Assembly (NCBI GenBank): GCA_029959285.1
Contig: JASCOE010000006.1
Location: 186,001 to 250,000 of the forward strand
From: Flavobacteriaceae bacterium PS02337
GTDB taxonomy: Bacteria; Bacteroidota; Bacteroidia; Flavobacteriales; Flavobacteriaceae
Direction: 5' to 3'
Length of the DNA: 64,000 nucleotides
In this document: positions 4,552-24,910 of the stretch, piece after piece
Numbering within the stretch: position 1 is the stretch's first letter
How the letters are laid out: each line of letters opens with the position of its first letter
Program-made: the position numbers and the translations under genes
The notes under the pieces: generated by a model
What the model saw: the letters and a program-made list of their open reading frames with translations, nothing else
What the model was told of the DNA's origin: nothing
Database searches by the model: none

Positions 4552-5598
4552 TTATGAATATTGTTTTTTATAATAATCTTTATAAGAACCAGAAGTCACA
4601 TTTTGTAACCATTCTGAATTGTTTAAATACCAATTTATAGTCTTTTCCAAGCCTTCTTCAAAAGTTACTGAAGGTTTCCATCCCAATTCTTTATTAATTT
4701 TCGAAGCATCAATTGCATAACGCAAATCATGTCCTGGTCTGTCTTTTACATATGTAATCAACTTCTCAGAATCTCCAACCACACGACATAACTTTTGATC
4801 CATTATTTCACAAAGGAGCTTTACCAAATCAATGTTTTTCCATTCATTGAATCCGCCAATATTGTAGGTTTCGTGATTTTTTCCTTGATGAAAAACAAGA
4901 TCTATTGCAATTGCGTGATCTTCAACAAATAACCAATCACGAGTATAATTACCATCACCATAAACAGGTAAAGGTTTATTATTAATAATATTATTGATGA
5001 AAAGCGGAATCAATTTTTCAGGAAAATGATATGAGCCATAATTATTTGAACAATTTGTCAAAACATAAGGCAATCCATAAGTCTCTCCGTAAGCTCTAAC
5101 AAAATGATCAGAACTTGCTTTCGAAGCTGAATAAGGTGAATTTGGATCATATGGTGTCGTTTCTGTAAATAGTCCTTCACTACCTAGAGAGCCGTAAACT
5201 TCATCAGTACTAATATGATAAAACCTCTTTCCCTCAAAATTATTTTTCCATTGATTTTTTGCCGCATTCAATAAATTCATTGTTCCAATAACATTTGTTT
5301 TTACAAATGCTAATGGATCTTCTATAGAACGATCAACATGTGATTCTGCTGCTAAATGTAAAACTCCGTCAAAATTATGAAGATTAAAAAAATCATTAAT
5401 AAAACTTTCATTTACAATATCTCCTTTAACGAAAGTATAGTTAGATTTATCTTCAATATCTTTTATATTCTCAAGATTTCCCGCATAAGTCAAAGCATCC
5501 AAATTAAAAATTTGGTATTCCGGATACTTATTTACAAAACGTCTTACTACATGAGATCCAATAAAACCTGCACCACCCGTTATAAGTATTTTTTTCAT
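4552..5598 (-). CDS. rfbB: dTDP-glucose 4,6-dehydratase
   Basis: This 348-residue extended short-chain dehydrogenase converts dTDP-glucose to dTDP-4-keto-6-deoxyglucose, the precursor of rhamnose and many deoxysugars. The NAD motif GGAGFIGS is at residues 8-15. The TDE triad characteristic of dehydratases is at 131-133, and the catalytic YxxxK is at Tyr156/Lys160 (PYSASK). The length is normal for the family. It is spaced 10 bp from manC and 4 bp from the SLBB gene, so it is co-transcribed. The partner genes rfbA, rfbC and rfbD are not in the window, so the final sugar is unknown. Confidence 0.95.
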   Translation of the reverse strand: MKKILITGGAGFIGSHVVRRFVNKYPEYQIFNLDALTYAGNLENIKDIEDKSNYTFVKGDIVNESFINDFFNLHNFDGVLHLAAESHVDRSIEDPLAFVKTNVIGTMNLLNAAKNQWKNNFEGKRFYHISTDEVYGSLGSEGLFTETTPYDPNSPYSASKASSDHFVRAYGETYGLPYVLTNCSNNYGSYHFPEKLIPLFINNIINNKPLPVYGDGNYTRDWLFVEDHAIAIDLVFHQGKNHETYNIGGFNEWKNIDLVKLLCEIMDQKLCRVVGDSEKLITYVKDRPGHDLRYAIDASKINKELGWKPSVTFEEGLEKTINWYLNNSEWLQNVTSGSYKDYYKKQYS

Positions 5599-5608
5599 TT
5601 TATTACTT

Positions 5609-6616
5609 CTAATTTAGTAATTCTGAGTTTTGTTTTTCTAGTTTGCTATATATATCTTTTACATCTTGAGAACTTTCTTTTTGTAAAATTAGATTCGCTG
5701 TCTCTGTATAAACAAAAATAGTGTTTTTTAACCCCAAGAAAGTTGTATGCTTATCAGATCCGATAACCATGTTTCCGTTTGCATCAATTGAATGACCTTT
5801 TAAATATAAATAATCATAAACTGATTCAAATGAACCTAAATCTGACCACGAGAAAGAAGCAGGCACCACTTTAATTTTTTTACTTCTTTCCATTACAGCA
5901 TAATCAATACTAATTGAGGGAATTTCGATTGATAAATCTAAATCTAAAAATCCCTCTTTATTTGTAAGCCATACTTCTTTTGATTTTTCATAAACATCAG
6001 GTTGATACTCTTTTAATTCCTCTAAAAGAATGCTCGCTTTGAAACAAAACATTCCACTATTCCATAAAAAATTACCTTTAGCAATAAATTCTTTTGCTGT
6101 TGTTTCGTTAGGTTTTTCACGAAATGATATCACATTATCTCCTTCTGCCTCTATGTAACCATAACCTGTTTCTGGTTTTGTCGGTATAACCCCAAAGGTT
6201 ACAATAAAACCTTCATTTGCTTTTGAAACAGCTTCTGAAATAGCTTGGTTGTAATTATCCATTTGATCTATGATATGATCTGAGGGAGTGATAATTAAAA
6301 TATCATCAGGTTCTGAAGCAAATGCCGCAAAAGCAATTGCTGCTGCAGTATTTCTAGGCGTCGCCTCAATAATATTTATATAAGAAGTATTGGTTTTATC
6401 CATTACTTTTCCGCTTAATTGATGATTATCAACATTTCCAACCACCATTACTTTATTTGCTAAATGACTATTTCTTTCGACTGTCATTTCAAATAAAGAC
6501 TTTCCTTCAAATATTTCAAGATATTGCTTTGGTCGACTTTTACGAGAAAGAGGCCATAATCGGCTTCCTACTCCTCCTGTAAGGATTACATGTGTAATAG
6601 ATTTATCTGAACTCAT
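5609..6616 (-). CDS. manC: Mannose-1-phosphate guanylyltransferase
   Basis: This 335-residue nucleotidyltransferase makes GDP-mannose from mannose-1-phosphate and GTP. The N-terminal signature GGVGSRLWPLSRKSRPKQYL is intact. Later blocks (RNTAAAIAFAA, ITPSDHIIDQ, GYGYIEAEG, FREKPN, WNSGMFCF) follow the order of the GDP-mannose pyrophosphorylase family. It lacks the C-terminal cupin isomerase domain found in bifunctional versions, so phosphomannose isomerase must come from elsewhere. It lies 31 bp after tviB in the same unit. Confidence 0.93.
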   Translation of the reverse strand: MSSDKSITHVILTGGVGSRLWPLSRKSRPKQYLEIFEGKSLFEMTVERNSHLANKVMVVGNVDNHQLSGKVMDKTNTSYINIIEATPRNTAAAIAFAAFASEPDDILIITPSDHIIDQMDNYNQAISEAVSKANEGFIVTFGVIPTKPETGYGYIEAEGDNVISFREKPNETTAKEFIAKGNFLWNSGMFCFKASILLEELKEYQPDVYEKSKEVWLTNKEGFLDLDLSIEIPSISIDYAVMERSKKIKVVPASFSWSDLGSFESVYDYLYLKGHSIDANGNMVIGSDKHTTFLGLKNTIFVYTETANLILQKESSQDVKDIYSKLEKQNSELLN

Positions 6617-6647: not shown

Positions 6648-7937
6648 CTAAAGCCTATTATCAGCTAAAGAACCTAAAACTCCTTTTACATCATAAATTA
6701 AACTTTTTTCTTTTTGTAAATTTGAGAAATTAATATCAAGAAATTCAGAATGTGCAACTCCTAATACTAAAGCATCGAATTTTTGTGTAGGTAACGTATT
6801 TACTGTTTGCAATTTGTATCCACTTTTCACTTCATCAGCATTTGCAAGAGGATCGAAAATAGTAACTGCGATTCCGTAATCTTTTAATGCTTTTATTACA
6901 TCAACAATTTTAGTATTTCTTACATCTGGACAATTCTCTTTAAAAGTAATTCCGAGCATTAACAATTCCGCACCATTAACAGAAATTCCTTTTTTGATCA
7001 TTAGTTTCACTATTTGTGAAGCTACATATTCTCCCATGCTGTCATTTAAACGCCTTCCTGCTAAGATTATTTCAGGATGATATCCAAATTCTTGTGCTCT
7101 TTGCGCCAAATAATAAGGATCTACACCTATACAATGACCTCCGACAAGGCCTGGTTTAAATGGTAAAAAATTCCATTTTGTAGCCGCTGCAGTTAATACT
7201 TCTTGAGTATCAATATTCATTAAATTGAATATTTTTGCCAATTCATTTACGAAAGCAATATTGATATCACGTTGCGAATTCTCAATAACTTTTGCCGCTT
7301 CTGCGACTTTTATTGTCGGTGCTAAATGCGTTCCTGCAGTAATAACTGATTTATAAAGTCCATCCACTTTTAAACCAATTTCAGGAGTTGAACCAGAAGT
7401 AACTTTTAATATCTTTTCAACTGTATGTTCTTTATCTCCTGGATTTATTCTTTCTGGAGAATATCCAGCAAAAAAATCTTCGTTGAATATCAATCCTGAA
7501 ACTCGCTCTAAAACTGGCACACATTGTTCTTCTGTAACACCAGGATATACTGTCGATTCGTAGACTACAATATCTCCTTTTTTCAAAACCTTCCCAACCG
7601 TCTCACTTGACTTGTATAAAGGTGTCAAATCTGGCCTATTATTCCTATCAACCGGAGTAGGAACAGTAACTATGTAATAATTACAATCTTGGATATCATT
7701 TATAGAAGTGGTACAGTATAGCCCCTTTTCTTCATCAACATTAGTAATTAAAACCTTTTGTAAAACTTCATCTTCAACTTCTAAAGTTGTATCTGTTCCA
7801 GATTTTAAAGAGTTAACTCTTGATTCATTTATATCAAAGCCAACAACTGAATATTTCGTTGCAAATAATCGCGCTAAAGGCAACCCAACATAGCCTAAAC
7901 CAATAACTGCAATTTTTACATTATTTTCTAATTTCAT
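6648..7937 (-). CDS. tviB: UDP-N-acetylhexosamine dehydrogenase (TviB/WbpO-like)
   Basis: This 429-residue nucleotide-sugar dehydrogenase opens with VKIAVIGLGYVGLPLARLF and carries the catalytic cysteine at about residue 269 in PGLVGGHCIGVDPYYL. The ASKV-type features (YESTVYPGVTEEQC, SPERINPGDKEH) match the TviB/WbpO group, which oxidises UDP-GalNAc or UDP-GlcNAc to the uronic acid, rather than the Ugd group. With the WbpP/TviC-like epimerase at 10178-11161 it would complete a Vi-antigen-type UDP-GalNAcA route. It is the first gene after a promoter and structured leader. The exact substrate is inferred, not shown. Confidence 0.88.
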   Translation of the reverse strand: MKLENNVKIAVIGLGYVGLPLARLFATKYSVVGFDINESRVNSLKSGTDTTLEVEDEVLQKVLITNVDEEKGLYCTTSINDIQDCNYYIVTVPTPVDRNNRPDLTPLYKSSETVGKVLKKGDIVVYESTVYPGVTEEQCVPVLERVSGLIFNEDFFAGYSPERINPGDKEHTVEKILKVTSGSTPEIGLKVDGLYKSVITAGTHLAPTIKVAEAAKVIENSQRDINIAFVNELAKIFNLMNIDTQEVLTAAATKWNFLPFKPGLVGGHCIGVDPYYLAQRAQEFGYHPEIILAGRRLNDSMGEYVASQIVKLMIKKGISVNGAELLMLGITFKENCPDVRNTKIVDVIKALKDYGIAVTIFDPLANADEVKSGYKLQTVNTLPTQKFDALVLGVAHSEFLDINFSNLQKEKSLIYDVKGVLGSLADNRL

Positions 7938-7948
7938 TTTTTTAATTT

Positions 7949-8014
7949 ATTTAGGTCATTAAAATTCACGGCTTCGCCGTTCCGAGTCCCATCATTGGTC
8001 TCAGCTACCTAAAT
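7949..8014 (-). promoter_or_regulatory. Structured 5' leader of the tviB operon (three-way junction)
   Basis: In RNA sense on the minus strand this leader can fold into a closed three-way junction. The outer stem of 8 bp pairs 8014-8007 with 7956-7949 (AUUUAGGU with ACCUAAAU). Hairpin A has the stem CUGAG/CUCGG (8004-8000 with 7986-7982) and inner CC/GG pairs. Hairpin B is ACGGC-GAA-GCCGU (7980-7968). The element GGUAGC (8009-8004) sits at the outer-stem/hairpin A junction, about 12-20 bases after the predicted transcription start. The outer stem closes 11 bases before the tviB ATG. It could be an UpxY recruitment site, an attenuator or a ligand-binding RNA; the function is inferred. Confidence 0.6.
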
Positions 8015-8027
8015 TAATCATTTTCGG

Positions 8028-8058
8028 CAAATATAGTACAATAAGTCAACTTTTTCAA
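8028..8058 (-). promoter_or_regulatory. Promoter of the tviB-wzz operon
   Basis: The minus strand reads TTG (8058-8056), a 20-base spacer, then TATATTTG (8035-8028). This is an exact match to the Flavobacterium TTG-N19/21-TANNTTTG promoter. Transcription should start near 8020-8024 and give a leader of about 85 nt before tviB. Confidence 0.8.
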
Positions 8059-8151
8059 TACGGTTTCCCGTAATCCTTGAAAACAAATTGTTAATAAAAA
8101 AGTACTTAAGCACAACACCTTATTAATCAGGATGTAAATAATTACTTTATA

Positions 8152-8204
8152 AAAAAAACAGAAGAAAAAAATCTAAAAAGACTTTCTCTTCTGCTGTTTT
8201 TTAT
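8152..8204 (-). terminator. Terminator after upxY
   Basis: On the minus strand the stem CAGAAGAGAAA (from 8193 down) pairs with a T-rich arm ending CTTCTG (8164-8159), and a run of eight T follows. It lies just after the upxY stop codon and separates the wza-upxY unit from the tviB unit. The plus-strand reading also ends in a T-run. Confidence 0.65.
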
Positions 8205-8216
8205 TGAATAACGCTG

Positions 8217-8681
8217 TTATTTATATTTTATTTTCAAAACACACCCTAAAGTTTCTAAAACTAGAATATAATAATTATTAGAAACTTCTTGCACAATTGC
8301 GCTTTGATTACTAAATGCACCTGACTCTAATTTAATTTTATCTCCAACTTGCATCGCCGAAACTGAAACTTCACTAATATTGGTTGCTTTAAGACTTGTT
8401 TTTATATTTTCGATTTCGTGTTCTTTAACAATGGCCGGTTTTCCTAACCAAAACAAATATCTCACAACTCCAGAAACTTGAAAAACTGAATTTCTTTCCG
8501 AATCGGGCAATTGAACAAAAACATAGGAATTAAAAAGAGGGACTTCAATCTTTTTCTTCCTATCCGACCATTGTTTAACTTGAGTAATCAACGGACAATA
8601 ACATTCAATCCCTAATTGTTTTAGCTTATCAGCAACTTTCTTTTCCCACTTCGGTTTTGTATAAACTACGTACCAATTCAT
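8217..8681 (-). CDS. UpxY/RfaH-type NusG paralogue
   Basis: This 154-residue protein has a NusG N-terminal (NGN) domain over residues 1-100, opening MNWYVVYTKPKWEKKVADKL and including VPLFNSYVFVQL and VRYLFWLGKPA. A KOW domain follows at about residues 118-154 (MQVGDKIKLESGAFSNQSAIVQEV). Such specialised NusG proteins (UpxY in Bacteroides, RfaH in enterobacteria) travel with RNA polymerase and suppress premature termination in long polysaccharide operons. It is encoded within the polysaccharide locus, 76 bp after ugd and directly upstream of the tviB promoter and leader. That placement makes local control of the capsule genes likely, though its target is not proven. Confidence 0.88.
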   Translation of the reverse strand: MNWYVVYTKPKWEKKVADKLKQLGIECYCPLITQVKQWSDRKKKIEVPLFNSYVFVQLPDSERNSVFQVSGVVRYLFWLGKPAIVKEHEIENIKTSLKATNISEVSVSAMQVGDKIKLESGAFSNQSAIVQEVSNNYYILVLETLGCVLKIKYK

Positions 8682-8757: not shown

Positions 8758-10149
8758 TTAAGAACCTATTCCGTGATAAACAAAACCTATAGATTCCAAT
8801 TCTTTGGCATTTAAAATATTTCTTCCATCAAAAATAAAAGCTGGTTTATGCATTGCATCATAAATATTTTGCCAATCATAAGTAGTAAATTCATCCCACT
8901 CGGTTAAAACGGCAACTGCATGAGCATCCTTACATGCTTCATATGCATTTTCAAATGCACTCAAATATTTAGCATTATCTGCGTTAGATCTTGTTTCCAA
9001 ATAATCTAAATCATTCAACATTTTATTTTTAGAAACTTTAGGATCAAAAACCGAAATCTGTGCCTGTTCATTAATCAAATCATCGGCAACATAAATCGCT
9101 GCTGATTCTCTTGTATCATTTGTATCTTTTTTGAAAGCCCAACCCAAGAATGCAATTTTTTTATCTGCTACAGTATTATATAATGTTTGAACAATTTTGT
9201 TCGAAAATCTTCTTTTTTGATGATCATTCATAATAATGACCTGTTCCCAATAATCTGCAACCTCATTTAATCCATATGATTTTGCGATGTAAACCAAATT
9301 TAAGATATCTTTCTGAAAACAAGAACCTCCAAAACCTACTGATGCTTTTAGAAATTTTGGCCCAATTCTGCTATCCATTCCAATTGCTTTAGCAACTTCA
9401 CTCACATTAGCGCCGGTTTTTTCACACAATTCAGACATTGCATTTATTGATGAAATACGTTGTGCCAAAAATGCATTTGCCGTAAGCTTAGACAATTCTG
9501 AAGACCATACATTAGTTGTTAAAATTCTATCACGACTTACCCAGTTTGAATAAACATCAACCAACGCATTAATTGCTTCTTCGCCTTCTGGAGTCGTATC
9601 TCCACCAATTAAAATTCTATCTGGATTTAACAAATCGGTTACAGCAGTACCTTCTGCTAAAAATTCTGGATTAGATAAAATCTGAAATTGAACTCCATTT
9701 CCTGTATTATCCAATATGCTTTTAATCGCTTCTGCAGTGCGAACAGGTAAAGTTGATTTTTCGACTACAATTTTATTTTGCTTTGCAACTCTTGCAATTT
9801 GTCTTGCACATAACTCGATATATTTCAAATCGGCAGCCATTCCCTTTCCTTTTCCATAGGTTTTTGTTGGCGTATTTACCGAAATAAATATCATTTGTGC
9901 TTCATCTATTGCTTTATCAACATCTGTTGAGAAAAATAAATTGCGACCTCTTGCTTCAGAAACAACTTCAGAAAGACCGGGCTCATAAATTGGAATGTTT
10001 TCTGGATTTGGATCATTCCAATCTGCAATCCTTTGTTCATTTAAATCAACAACTGTAACTTGAATATGTGGACATTTTTGAGCAATGACTGCCATTGTAG
10101 GCCCTCCAACATATCCTGCGCCAATGCAGCAAATTTTTGTAATTTTCAT
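8758..10149 (-). CDS. ugd: UDP-glucose 6-dehydrogenase, full copy
   Basis: This 463-residue enzyme makes UDP-glucuronate from UDP-glucose with two rounds of NAD reduction. The Rossmann start is [13 protein letters not shown], the substrate block is [14 protein letters not shown], the catalytic cysteine is at about residue 277 ([10 protein letters not shown]), and the C-terminal UDP-binding block is [16 protein letters not shown]. The length matches the eukaryote-like Ugd class. It lies 28 bp after the epimerase gene and 76 bp before upxY. A close paralogue is cut by the left edge of the window. Confidence 0.96.
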
Positions 10150-10177: not shown

Positions 10178-11161
10178 TTATTTTAAATTATTCCAATACC
10201 ATCCAACTGCTTCTTTCAATCCTTCTTGTAAAGAATATTTTGGACTGTAACCTAGCATTTTCTTTGCTTTATCAATACTTGCCAATGAATGAGGAATGTC
10301 ACCTGCTCTATTCTCTCCATAAACAACTTCAACGTCATTTATTTTTTCATCCAATTCAGCTAAATATTGTTTTAAATATTTCACCAAATCATTTAACGTA
10401 TTTCTATCGCCAAAGGCAGTATTGTAAACTGTATTAATTGCTTCTGGATTCTGACAACTGATTGCTAATTCATTCATCTGAATCACATTATCTATATATG
10501 TAAAATCACGAGAATAGTTTCCATCTCCATTAATTACAGGACTTTCGTAATTCATAAATTGTTTTACAAATTTTGGAATTACTGCGGCATAAGCTCCATT
10601 TGGATCTTGTTTTCTTCCAAAAACATTAAAGTAACGAAGCCCAATTGTTTCTAATCCGTATGTTTTGCTAAAAATATCAGCATATAATTCGTTTACATAT
10701 TTTGTGATTGCATAAGGCGATAATGGCTTACCAATAACATCCTCTACTTTTGGTAATCCTTGCGAATCTCCATAAGTTGACGAACTTGCCGCATAAATAA
10801 AACGCTTTACCTTAGCATCACGAGCTGCAGTGAGCATATTTAAAAAACCCGAAACATTAACATCGTTTGTTGTAATAGGATCTTTTATTGATCTTGGAAC
10901 TGACCCCAAAGCTGCTTGATGCAATAAATAATCTACACCTTCTACAGCAGAAACACAATCTTCTAAATTTCGAATATCACCTTCAATTAATTTGAAATTA
11001 GGATTATCGAGAAAATCTTTCAAATTATGACGATGTCCAGTAGAAAAATTATCCAAACAAATAATTTTATGACCTAATCTTAAAAAATACTCAGTCAAAT
11101 TTGAACCGATAAACCCAGCTCCTCCTGTAATCAAAATTGTATTTTTTATCGTATTTTCCAT
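10178..11161 (-). CDS. UDP-N-acetylglucosamine 4-epimerase (WbpP/TviC-like)
   Basis: This 327-residue extended short-chain dehydrogenase has GGAGFIGS at residues 13-20, the serine-rich block AASSSTYGD near 124-132 and YxxxK at Tyr150/Lys154. The early blocks DNFSTGHRHNL, HQAALGSVPRSI and NVFGRKQDPNGAYAAVIPKF resemble WbpP/TviC enzymes, which interconvert UDP-GlcNAc and UDP-GalNAc or their uronic acids. A role with TviB in making UDP-GalNAcA is likely. It is 10 bp from wzc and 28 bp from ugd. The sequence alone does not exclude a GalE-like or GlcA-epimerase role. Confidence 0.87.
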   Translation of the reverse strand: MENTIKNTILITGGAGFIGSNLTEYFLRLGHKIICLDNFSTGHRHNLKDFLDNPNFKLIEGDIRNLEDCVSAVEGVDYLLHQAALGSVPRSIKDPITTNDVNVSGFLNMLTAARDAKVKRFIYAASSSTYGDSQGLPKVEDVIGKPLSPYAITKYVNELYADIFSKTYGLETIGLRYFNVFGRKQDPNGAYAAVIPKFVKQFMNYESPVINGDGNYSRDFTYIDNVIQMNELAISCQNPEAINTVYNTAFGDRNTLNDLVKYLKQYLAELDEKINDVEVVYGENRAGDIPHSLASIDKAKKMLGYSPKYSLQEGLKEAVGWYWNNLK

Positions 11162-24856: not shown

Positions 24857-24910
24857 AAGGTAGAAATTATGAATTCAGGTCTAATCCTTCGATAATCTAT
24901 GTTCTACCTT
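24857..24910 (-). promoter_or_regulatory. Hairpin/attenuator candidate upstream of rpsD
   Basis: In minus-strand RNA, AAGGUAGAA (24910-24902) pairs with UUCUACCUU (24865-24857). Inside are AUUAU/AUAAU and AGG/CCU pairs. Three bases after the stem comes a run of eight U (24853-24846), and then the rpsD ATG at 24842. It resembles an attenuator in the rpsK-rpsD gap, or an S4-binding structure. The function is inferred. Confidence 0.6.

Follow-up and report, generated by a model that had tools for sequence, protein, structure and literature searches.

The leader between upxY and a tviB-like gene in this flavobacterial genome contains a conserved element that, as judged by comparing related loci, is a covarying hairpin carrying TG[TG]GA, followed 13–14 nt later by GCGNAGC with a covarying flanking pair and then by RTG. 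We consider it likely that the leader serves as a loading site for UpxY at a hairpin-assisted pause, helping RNA polymerase through the polysaccharide operon. The computations show that the element exists, covaries, has a rigid geometry and is linked to UpxY, and that a second UpxY clade has a different element. A UpxY leader site is a known kind of loading site, now defined letter by letter, and the vague statement that UpxY acts on leaders becomes a searchable site that predicts which operons, near or far, are under a given UpxY. Among the matches listed from open-licence PMC papers, none names a flavobacterial UpxY site.

Organization of the locus

The window is the whole 64,000-nucleotide stretch of DNA that was analysed, and all features of the locus given here are on its minus strand. 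As originally predicted, a consensus promoter and then the leader lie between upxY and the tviB-like gene at the positions proposed, and the gene just upstream (8217..8681) does encode a NusG paralogue of the UpxY family (NCBIfam NF033644, 142.3 bits with a cut-off of 100; Pfam NusG, 73.7 bits), the likely trans-acting partner of the leader. Downstream of upxY, a terminator-like hairpin read from the sequence (CAGAAGA...TCTTCTG with a T-run; 8159..8193) stands between the gene and the leader promoter, and many relatives have, by eye, a comparable hairpin 3' of upxY. The promoter TTGACTTATTGTACTATATTTG (8028..8049) reads as the Bacteroidetes type (-33/-7, TAnnTTTG; TTGAC...TATATTTG), and would start transcription of the leader near 8021. 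TAnnTTTG is found 51–59 nt before GCGAAGC or GCGGAGC in 55 of the 56 genus loci with upxY, which were fetched using the leader; the genus locus outside these 55 (L069) has the element too. A six-codon frame, MINLGS (8021-8001), runs from the presumed start site to hairpin 1 and, by eye, is not kept in relatives.

The tviB-like nucleotide sugar dehydrogenase gene (6648..7937) is likely the first gene of the target operon; it scores 390.2 bits with TIGR03026 (cut-off 189.8) and 553.5 bits with NF011729 TviB, under that family's cut-off of 592. It is followed on the same strand by manC-like (5609-6616) and rfbB-like (4552-5598) genes. We note that upxY is flanked by two nucleotide sugar dehydrogenase genes (6648-7937 and 8758-10149), the second of them beside a gene for a TviC-like epimerase (10178-11161) whose best family match is under its cut-off, and that the window also has an S4-Flavobacteria ribosomal protein leader at 24865-24897 on the minus strand (Rfam RF03141, 47.2 bits). 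Two UpxY genes of the host score above the cut-off of the family model, and a third match, which is weaker, is presumably NusG. GGCGAAGCCRTG occurs once in the 5.7-Mb host genome and not at all in a backwards control, and a plasmid collection in which five records have a UpxY match contains nothing that matches the leader DNA.

Predicted fold of the leader

The 68-nt leader has a predicted folding energy of -20.4 kcal/mol (z -3.89), with none of 200 shuffles equally good, and the three stems originally drawn as a three-way junction are recovered. The junction therefore stands as a fold of this sequence, but its closing stem (ATTTAGGT/ACCTAAAT; 5' arm 8007..8014, 3' arm 7949..7956) is not conserved across 103 non-redundant leaders, where pairing with its own partner scores -5.36 versus -5.46 when partners are permuted (z 0.46); the z score is -1.08 over 26 Flavobacterium leaders. 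As it fails this permutation test, the three-way junction was dropped as a conserved unit. The closing stem may nonetheless be real among close relatives, since in 55 genus leaders both-side changes are seen at four of its seven main pairs, which are held in 71.3% of cells. Over the wider set, covariation is seen in hairpin 1 and in the flanking pair of hairpin 2. For the genus alignment as a whole structure, two of five measures do not clearly beat shuffles (both-side-changed pairs, 40/500; pair types, 292/500).

The GGUAGC at the junction (GGTAGC, 8004..8009), which the original prediction took for an ops core, is present in 7 of the 55 genus leaders and was dropped as such. Over the leader every Rfam family stays below its gathering score, and a scan of 7900-8220 at E≤10 listed ten matches, all under the gathering score and none of them to Flavo-1, which has no support. 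The working parts are instead the two hairpins, which the original prediction drew but gave no prominence.

Hairpin 1 and the TG[TG]GA motif

Cores for comparison were collected with the pattern TG[TG]G[AG]N5-15GCGNAGCNNT[GA] and thinned to <75% identity (151 distinct sequences, 103 retained); letters fixed in this pattern do not count as evidence. Hairpin 1 (CTGAGACCAATGATGGGACTCGG; 7982..8004) is a candidate pause hairpin of the nascent RNA, recognised by its fold and by covariation of its arms. Across the 103 cores the arms pair with their own partners at -9.07 versus -5.93 when permuted (sd 0.213; 0/5000), and the effect is present both outside the genus set (z -12.2) and within it (z -5.2). 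In the alignment of the 55 genus leaders, seven of eight pairs have both-side changes and 82.8% of cells are paired, although two of the pairs are open in 18 and 24 of the sequences.

The 3' side of hairpin 1 includes TGGGAC (7986..7991), the window's copy of the conserved TG[TG]GA(C), located 14 nt before GCG. The distance from the start of TG[TG]GA to GCG is 14 nt in 70 of the 103 cores, 13 nt in 30, 15 nt in two and 8 nt in one, where the search pattern permitted 10–20 nt. The motif is a candidate contact, either as upstream duplex or as RNA.

Hairpin 2 and the pause letters

The predicted pause and UpxY-loading core is GGCGAAGCCGTG (7967..7978), in which GCGNAGC is followed by RTG. Within it GCGAAGC (7971..7977) could form a GNA-loop mini-hairpin, hairpin 2, with a flanking pair at 7970/7978. 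This flanking pair is a standard pair, G-T included, in 96 of the 103 cores versus 71.6 when permuted (0/20000), and a Watson-Crick pair in 75 versus 48.6 (0/20000); its forms include G:C (58), A:T (11), C:G (5) and, in 21 of the 96, G-T. A five-pair version was dropped, the second outer pair occurring in 52 cores versus 55.2 permuted (Watson-Crick, 29 versus 28.2), so that of the ACGGC-GAA-GCCGU hairpin in the original prediction GCGNAGC and one covarying flanking pair survive and the two outermost pairs do not. The loop base that varies is A in 88 cores, G in 10 and T in 5.

In a set of 111 cores gathered with no letters imposed downstream (thinned from 161 distinct sequences), there is a T at +9 in 108 and a G at +10 in 81. 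We predict from these letters that the RNA 3' end would be at 7968 (T-1) with G+1 at 7967. A pause with this T as RNA 3' end puts the window's GCGAAGC at -10 to -4, the end of hairpin 1 at -15 and TGGGA at -24 to -20, and the consensus pause letters G-10, Y-1 and G+1 are all present, G-10 being fixed by the search pattern and T-1 and G+1 unconstrained. Vienna DNA parameters give -0.6 kcal/mol for GGCGAAGCC and -4.4 for the window's five-pair form, and do not reproduce the extra stability of GCGAAGC: GNA- and GNNA-loop DNA mini-hairpins are described as unusually stable, and that of GCGAAGC as melting at 78 C, in a passage of PMC4686876.

The RNAalifold-based model of the element, R1, contains hairpin 2 only, hairpin 1 being left out because its loop length varies. 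It matches the window at 7966-8011 with 40.1 bits (E 4.7e-9), the window sequence being part of its training set. At one locus (L152:300-520) there are two copies of the element upstream of upxY, about 160 nt apart.

Linkage of the element to UpxY

At E≤0.01, BLAST with the leader matches 87 of 300 genomes of the genus, many of the matches being short; of the 62 loci gathered in this way 56, including the host's, encode upxY. These 56 are circular, having been fetched with the leader itself, and the fair count is that of 80 loci fetched with UpxY. The pattern TG[TG][GA][AG]-N8-9-GCGNAGC is present within at most 3 kb on either side in 72 of the 80, with 72 matches on the strand of upxY, none on the opposite strand and one in reversed sequences; the other eight have no element within the stretch examined (≤3 kb each side). 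In the family set the element is found in 41 of 59 UpxY loci and absent from 18 (reversed control, 1), and in the phylum set it is found in 29 of 70 and absent from 41, some of the 29 perhaps arising by chance given five matches in the reversed control. Of the phylum loci, 30 came from the search itself and 40 were hand-picked for family coverage. A scan of the upxY strand alone with slightly different spacing is likewise positive for 29 of the 70; these loci come from families within the same class and, beyond it, from the families that we label f20 (2/2), f24 (2/2) and f27 (1/2), while f22 has one doubtful match. Families f17 and f18 (11 loci each) have no element on the strand of upxY, and one f18 locus (L279) matches under the two-strand pattern. 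In Spirosoma (L386) the sole GCGNAGC near upxY falls within the preceding gene. Over all pooled loci, which include leader-fetched and overlapping ones, there are 183 matches in 1.30 Mb and none in reversed sequence.

The position of the element and the genes behind it vary. In some Flavobacterium it follows upxY at a distance of roughly 1 kb or more, and at four loci (L035, L040, L060, L063) the order of upxY and leader is retained with no visible tviB downstream. The genes downstream of the element include tviB, gmd, rmlB, rmlD, fcl, manC, wecA-like, asnB and others, and the link to UpxY is the constant.

At the level of genomes, 47 of 249 Flavobacteriaceae have both UpxY (at least 79 bits, a threshold of our own) and the element (R1 at E≤0.01), nine have UpxY only, five the element only and 188 neither (Fisher 1e-35, a result that is partly circular because many of these loci were in the training set of R1). 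The model thus matches 47 of the 56 genomes with UpxY versus 5 of the 193 without, and the nine UpxY genomes lacking a match at this threshold count against a loading site. The five matches in genomes without UpxY all lie within reading frames of 371–583 codons. In contrast, for 15 copies remote from upxY in genomes with UpxY (L360–L374; picked by hand from outside the training set, one at E 0.022) no enclosing frame exceeds 121 codons. For eight of these 15, a sugar-nucleotide or glycosyltransferase gene is the longest open reading frame with its start within 1.5 kb (Glycos_transf_4, gmd-like, rmlD-like twice, fcl-like, tviB-like, rmlB-like and manC-like), which fits a trans-acting, RfaH-like regulon; for the other seven it is asnB-like, or encodes an NRPS, a DUF4956 protein, an AAA ATPase, an oxidoreductase, a methyltransferase or a product without a family. 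The copy at L370:1095-5000 stands ahead of an NRPS-like gene with AMP-binding and Condensation domains, and suggests that UpxY may also serve non-capsule operons. A pattern search of the family found matches in 39 of 397 genomes, mostly not beside upxY, with a upxY match at 8 of the 30 loci fetched (L076–L105). UpxZ (PF06603) was detected in none of 149 class genomes, a search that is uninformative because its controls were silent too.

A second UpxY clade with a different element

The second UpxY of the host is encoded outside the window (L074:5861-6950, contig C1), by a gene divergent from a capsule cluster whose leader contains CAGTTATTATGTAACTATTCACGGGGAACCC. Eleven of 200 genus genomes, the host included, align at this leader region, and by eye its best-kept piece is GAGTAGTTA..TGTAACTATTCACGGGGNACCC, with arms that change on both sides (AGTTA..TAACT, AGCTA..TAGCT) and with one GTA loop. 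A GGGNACC hairpin is present at all 12 UpxY2-like loci at the same spacing as GCGNAGC, with no GCGNAGC at the expected spacing, and UpxY1-like loci have GCGNAGC in 72 of 79 cases and GGGNACC in none. Eleven of the 12 UpxY2 loci were fetched by the region of this second element, and the twelfth (L253), fetched by UpxY, is independent. As the clade to which the host's second UpxY belongs has GGGNACC at the same spacing, the hairpin may determine which UpxY loads. The second element is without T-1 and G+1, CTTT following in most cases, and its pause may therefore differ.

Proposed mechanism and alternatives

We infer a pause of RNA polymerase, recognition of DNA rather than RNA, binding of UpxY, and antitermination. 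RNA polymerase would start near 8021, transcribe hairpin 1 (7982-8004), and pause about 54 nt in, at a consensus-type pause ending in GGCGAAGCCGT with G as the next letter. Hairpin 1 would then lie at the RNA exit of the paused polymerase, where it could hold the pause, and GCGAAGC would be in the melted non-template DNA, free to snap into a GNA mini-hairpin. UpxY from the adjacent upstream gene would recognise the paused complex through this non-template hairpin and probably also through TG[TG]GA, some 20–24 bp upstream; it would bind RNA polymerase and stay on through tviB-manC-rfbB, suppressing pausing and termination, with antitermination of the downstream capsule operon as the presumed outcome. 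The comparisons strongly support the original proposal that the leader holds a loading or pausing site for the local UpxY, though not for the reasons first offered, GGUAGC and the junction.

The strongest alternative, though an unlikely one, is that UpxY binds the element as RNA, through the GNA triloop of hairpin 2, through hairpin 1, or both. According to a passage of PMC12691694, LoaP, also a NusG paralogue, binds a small RNA hairpin in its leader. Hairpin 1 is itself a covarying RNA hairpin, and the G-T pairs (21/103) at the flanking position of hairpin 2 suit RNA. GNA triloops occur in RNA as well. Hairpin 2, however, ends 3 nt ahead of the conserved T-1 (108/111) and G+1 (81/111), and at a pause there its RNA would be buried in the hybrid, unable to fold, the DNA strand being exposed; the T-1 and G+1 letters are themselves hard to account for with an RNA ligand, and the local UpxY scores 44.2 bits with the LoaP model, under the cut-off of 125.

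It is far less probable that the element is a pause or mRNA-stability element kept for its own sake and tied to upxY merely by sharing its operons. An RNA hairpin with a consensus pause would indeed work without a partner, but genomes without UpxY yield 5 matches in 193, every one within a long reading frame, genomes with UpxY have copies far from upxY, and the UpxY1-like and UpxY2-like clades differ in the hairpin at equal spacing. Least credible of all is a cis-acting RNA switch or attenuator that responds to a small molecule, for instance a nucleotide sugar. This possibility, raised in the original prediction, is in keeping with how compactly and stably the window's leader folds (z -3.89), its place ahead of a nucleotide-sugar gene and some both-side changes in the closing stem among close relatives, yet it is at odds with the lack of any Rfam match, the failure of that stem in the permutation test over 103 leaders, and downstream genes that vary while the link to UpxY persists.

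Comparison with known systems

The proposed UpxY loading site resembles the leaders of the dfn and mln operons, where LoaP likewise combines a NusG paralogue with a leader hairpin. The ligand of LoaP is given in a passage of PMC12691694 as a UNCG-type hairpin bound as RNA, with a terminator. The UpxY element differs in having a GNA loop and pause letters, and the local UpxY is not a LoaP by the family model.

Bacteroides UpxY proteins are known to act on the leaders of capsule operons. UpxY-dependent Bacteroides capsule leaders were reportedly studied by Chatzidaki-Livanis in 2009 and by Saba in 2024 (Nat Commun 15:10862), the latter said to have found that UpxY reads non-template and upstream duplex DNA to recognise a paused RNA polymerase, with nascent RNA hairpins assisting. 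In passages of two further papers UpxY is stated to prevent termination within leaders (PMC7819879) and to contact upstream duplex DNA (PMC12691694). These leaders have the protein family and the kind of operon in common with the flavobacterial site, at which upxY is in the locus and the covarying hairpin 1 is just upstream of the predicted pause; unlike them, the flavobacterial leader lies after upxY with its own promoter and a terminator-like hairpin. The predicted layout fits such UpxY-DNA contacts, with GCGNAGC in the predicted bubble and TG[TG]GA 13–14 nt before it. In all four Bacteroides and Phocaeicola loci read (two of Bacteroides finegoldii, two of Phocaeicola massiliensis), GCGTAGC or GCGAAGC lies no more than 60 nt ahead of the portion of upxY that aligns, with TG[TG]GA at the usual spacing in two and, by eye, a hairpin ahead of GCGNAGC in three; in the two annotated loci GCGNAGC falls inside the annotated start of upxY. 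Given GCGNAGC before upxY in these four loci, the Bacteroides sites are probably of the same kind as the flavobacterial one.

The closest parallel in detail is RfaH, with which UpxY aligns at E 3.5e-9. A passage of PMC5995543 describes RfaH as loading where the non-template DNA forms a hairpin at a consensus pause, the ops element GGCGGTAGCGTG, with the pause at U11/G12. The flavobacterial element shares the register of ops (G-11 G-10 ... T-1 G+1) and the possibility of a small non-template hairpin, and GGCGAAGCCGTG and GGCGGTAGCGTG are equal in 8 of 12 letters. The ops sequence GGCGGTAGCnTG itself is not found, GGCGGTAGC being present in none of the 55 genus leaders on either strand. The loop of the element is a three-base GNA and that of ops is GGTA, so that the flipped T6 has no counterpart in the element, and RfaH H20, R23, Q24 and R73 of the T6 pocket correspond in a hand-read alignment to K19, Q22, L23 and S70 of UpxY. 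The SDRK segment of UpxY, invariant across 11 aligned sequences, is by alignment with RfaH a candidate upstream DNA contact.

By our own comparison both sites would fit GC-loop-GC mini-hairpins of the GNA or GNNA type, ops GCGGTAGC being formally GNNA, and among the matches listed no paper combines RfaH with a term for such mini-hairpins. That both fit known ultra-stable DNA mini-hairpin types suggests a reason for the form of ops. We put forward tentatively, at a little under an even chance, that RfaH and UpxY share a recruitment code, an ultra-stable GNA or GNNA DNA mini-hairpin popping from the non-template strand at a paused polymerase, with the inner stem pair as the letter of clade specificity that prevents cross-talk. 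If so, the UpxY1 clade would read GC-GNA-GC and the UpxY2 clade GG-GNA-CC, and two UpxY proteins in one cell would serve separate operons. GCGNAGC and GGGNACC form a natural pair of sites for studying how NusG paralogues choose their targets.
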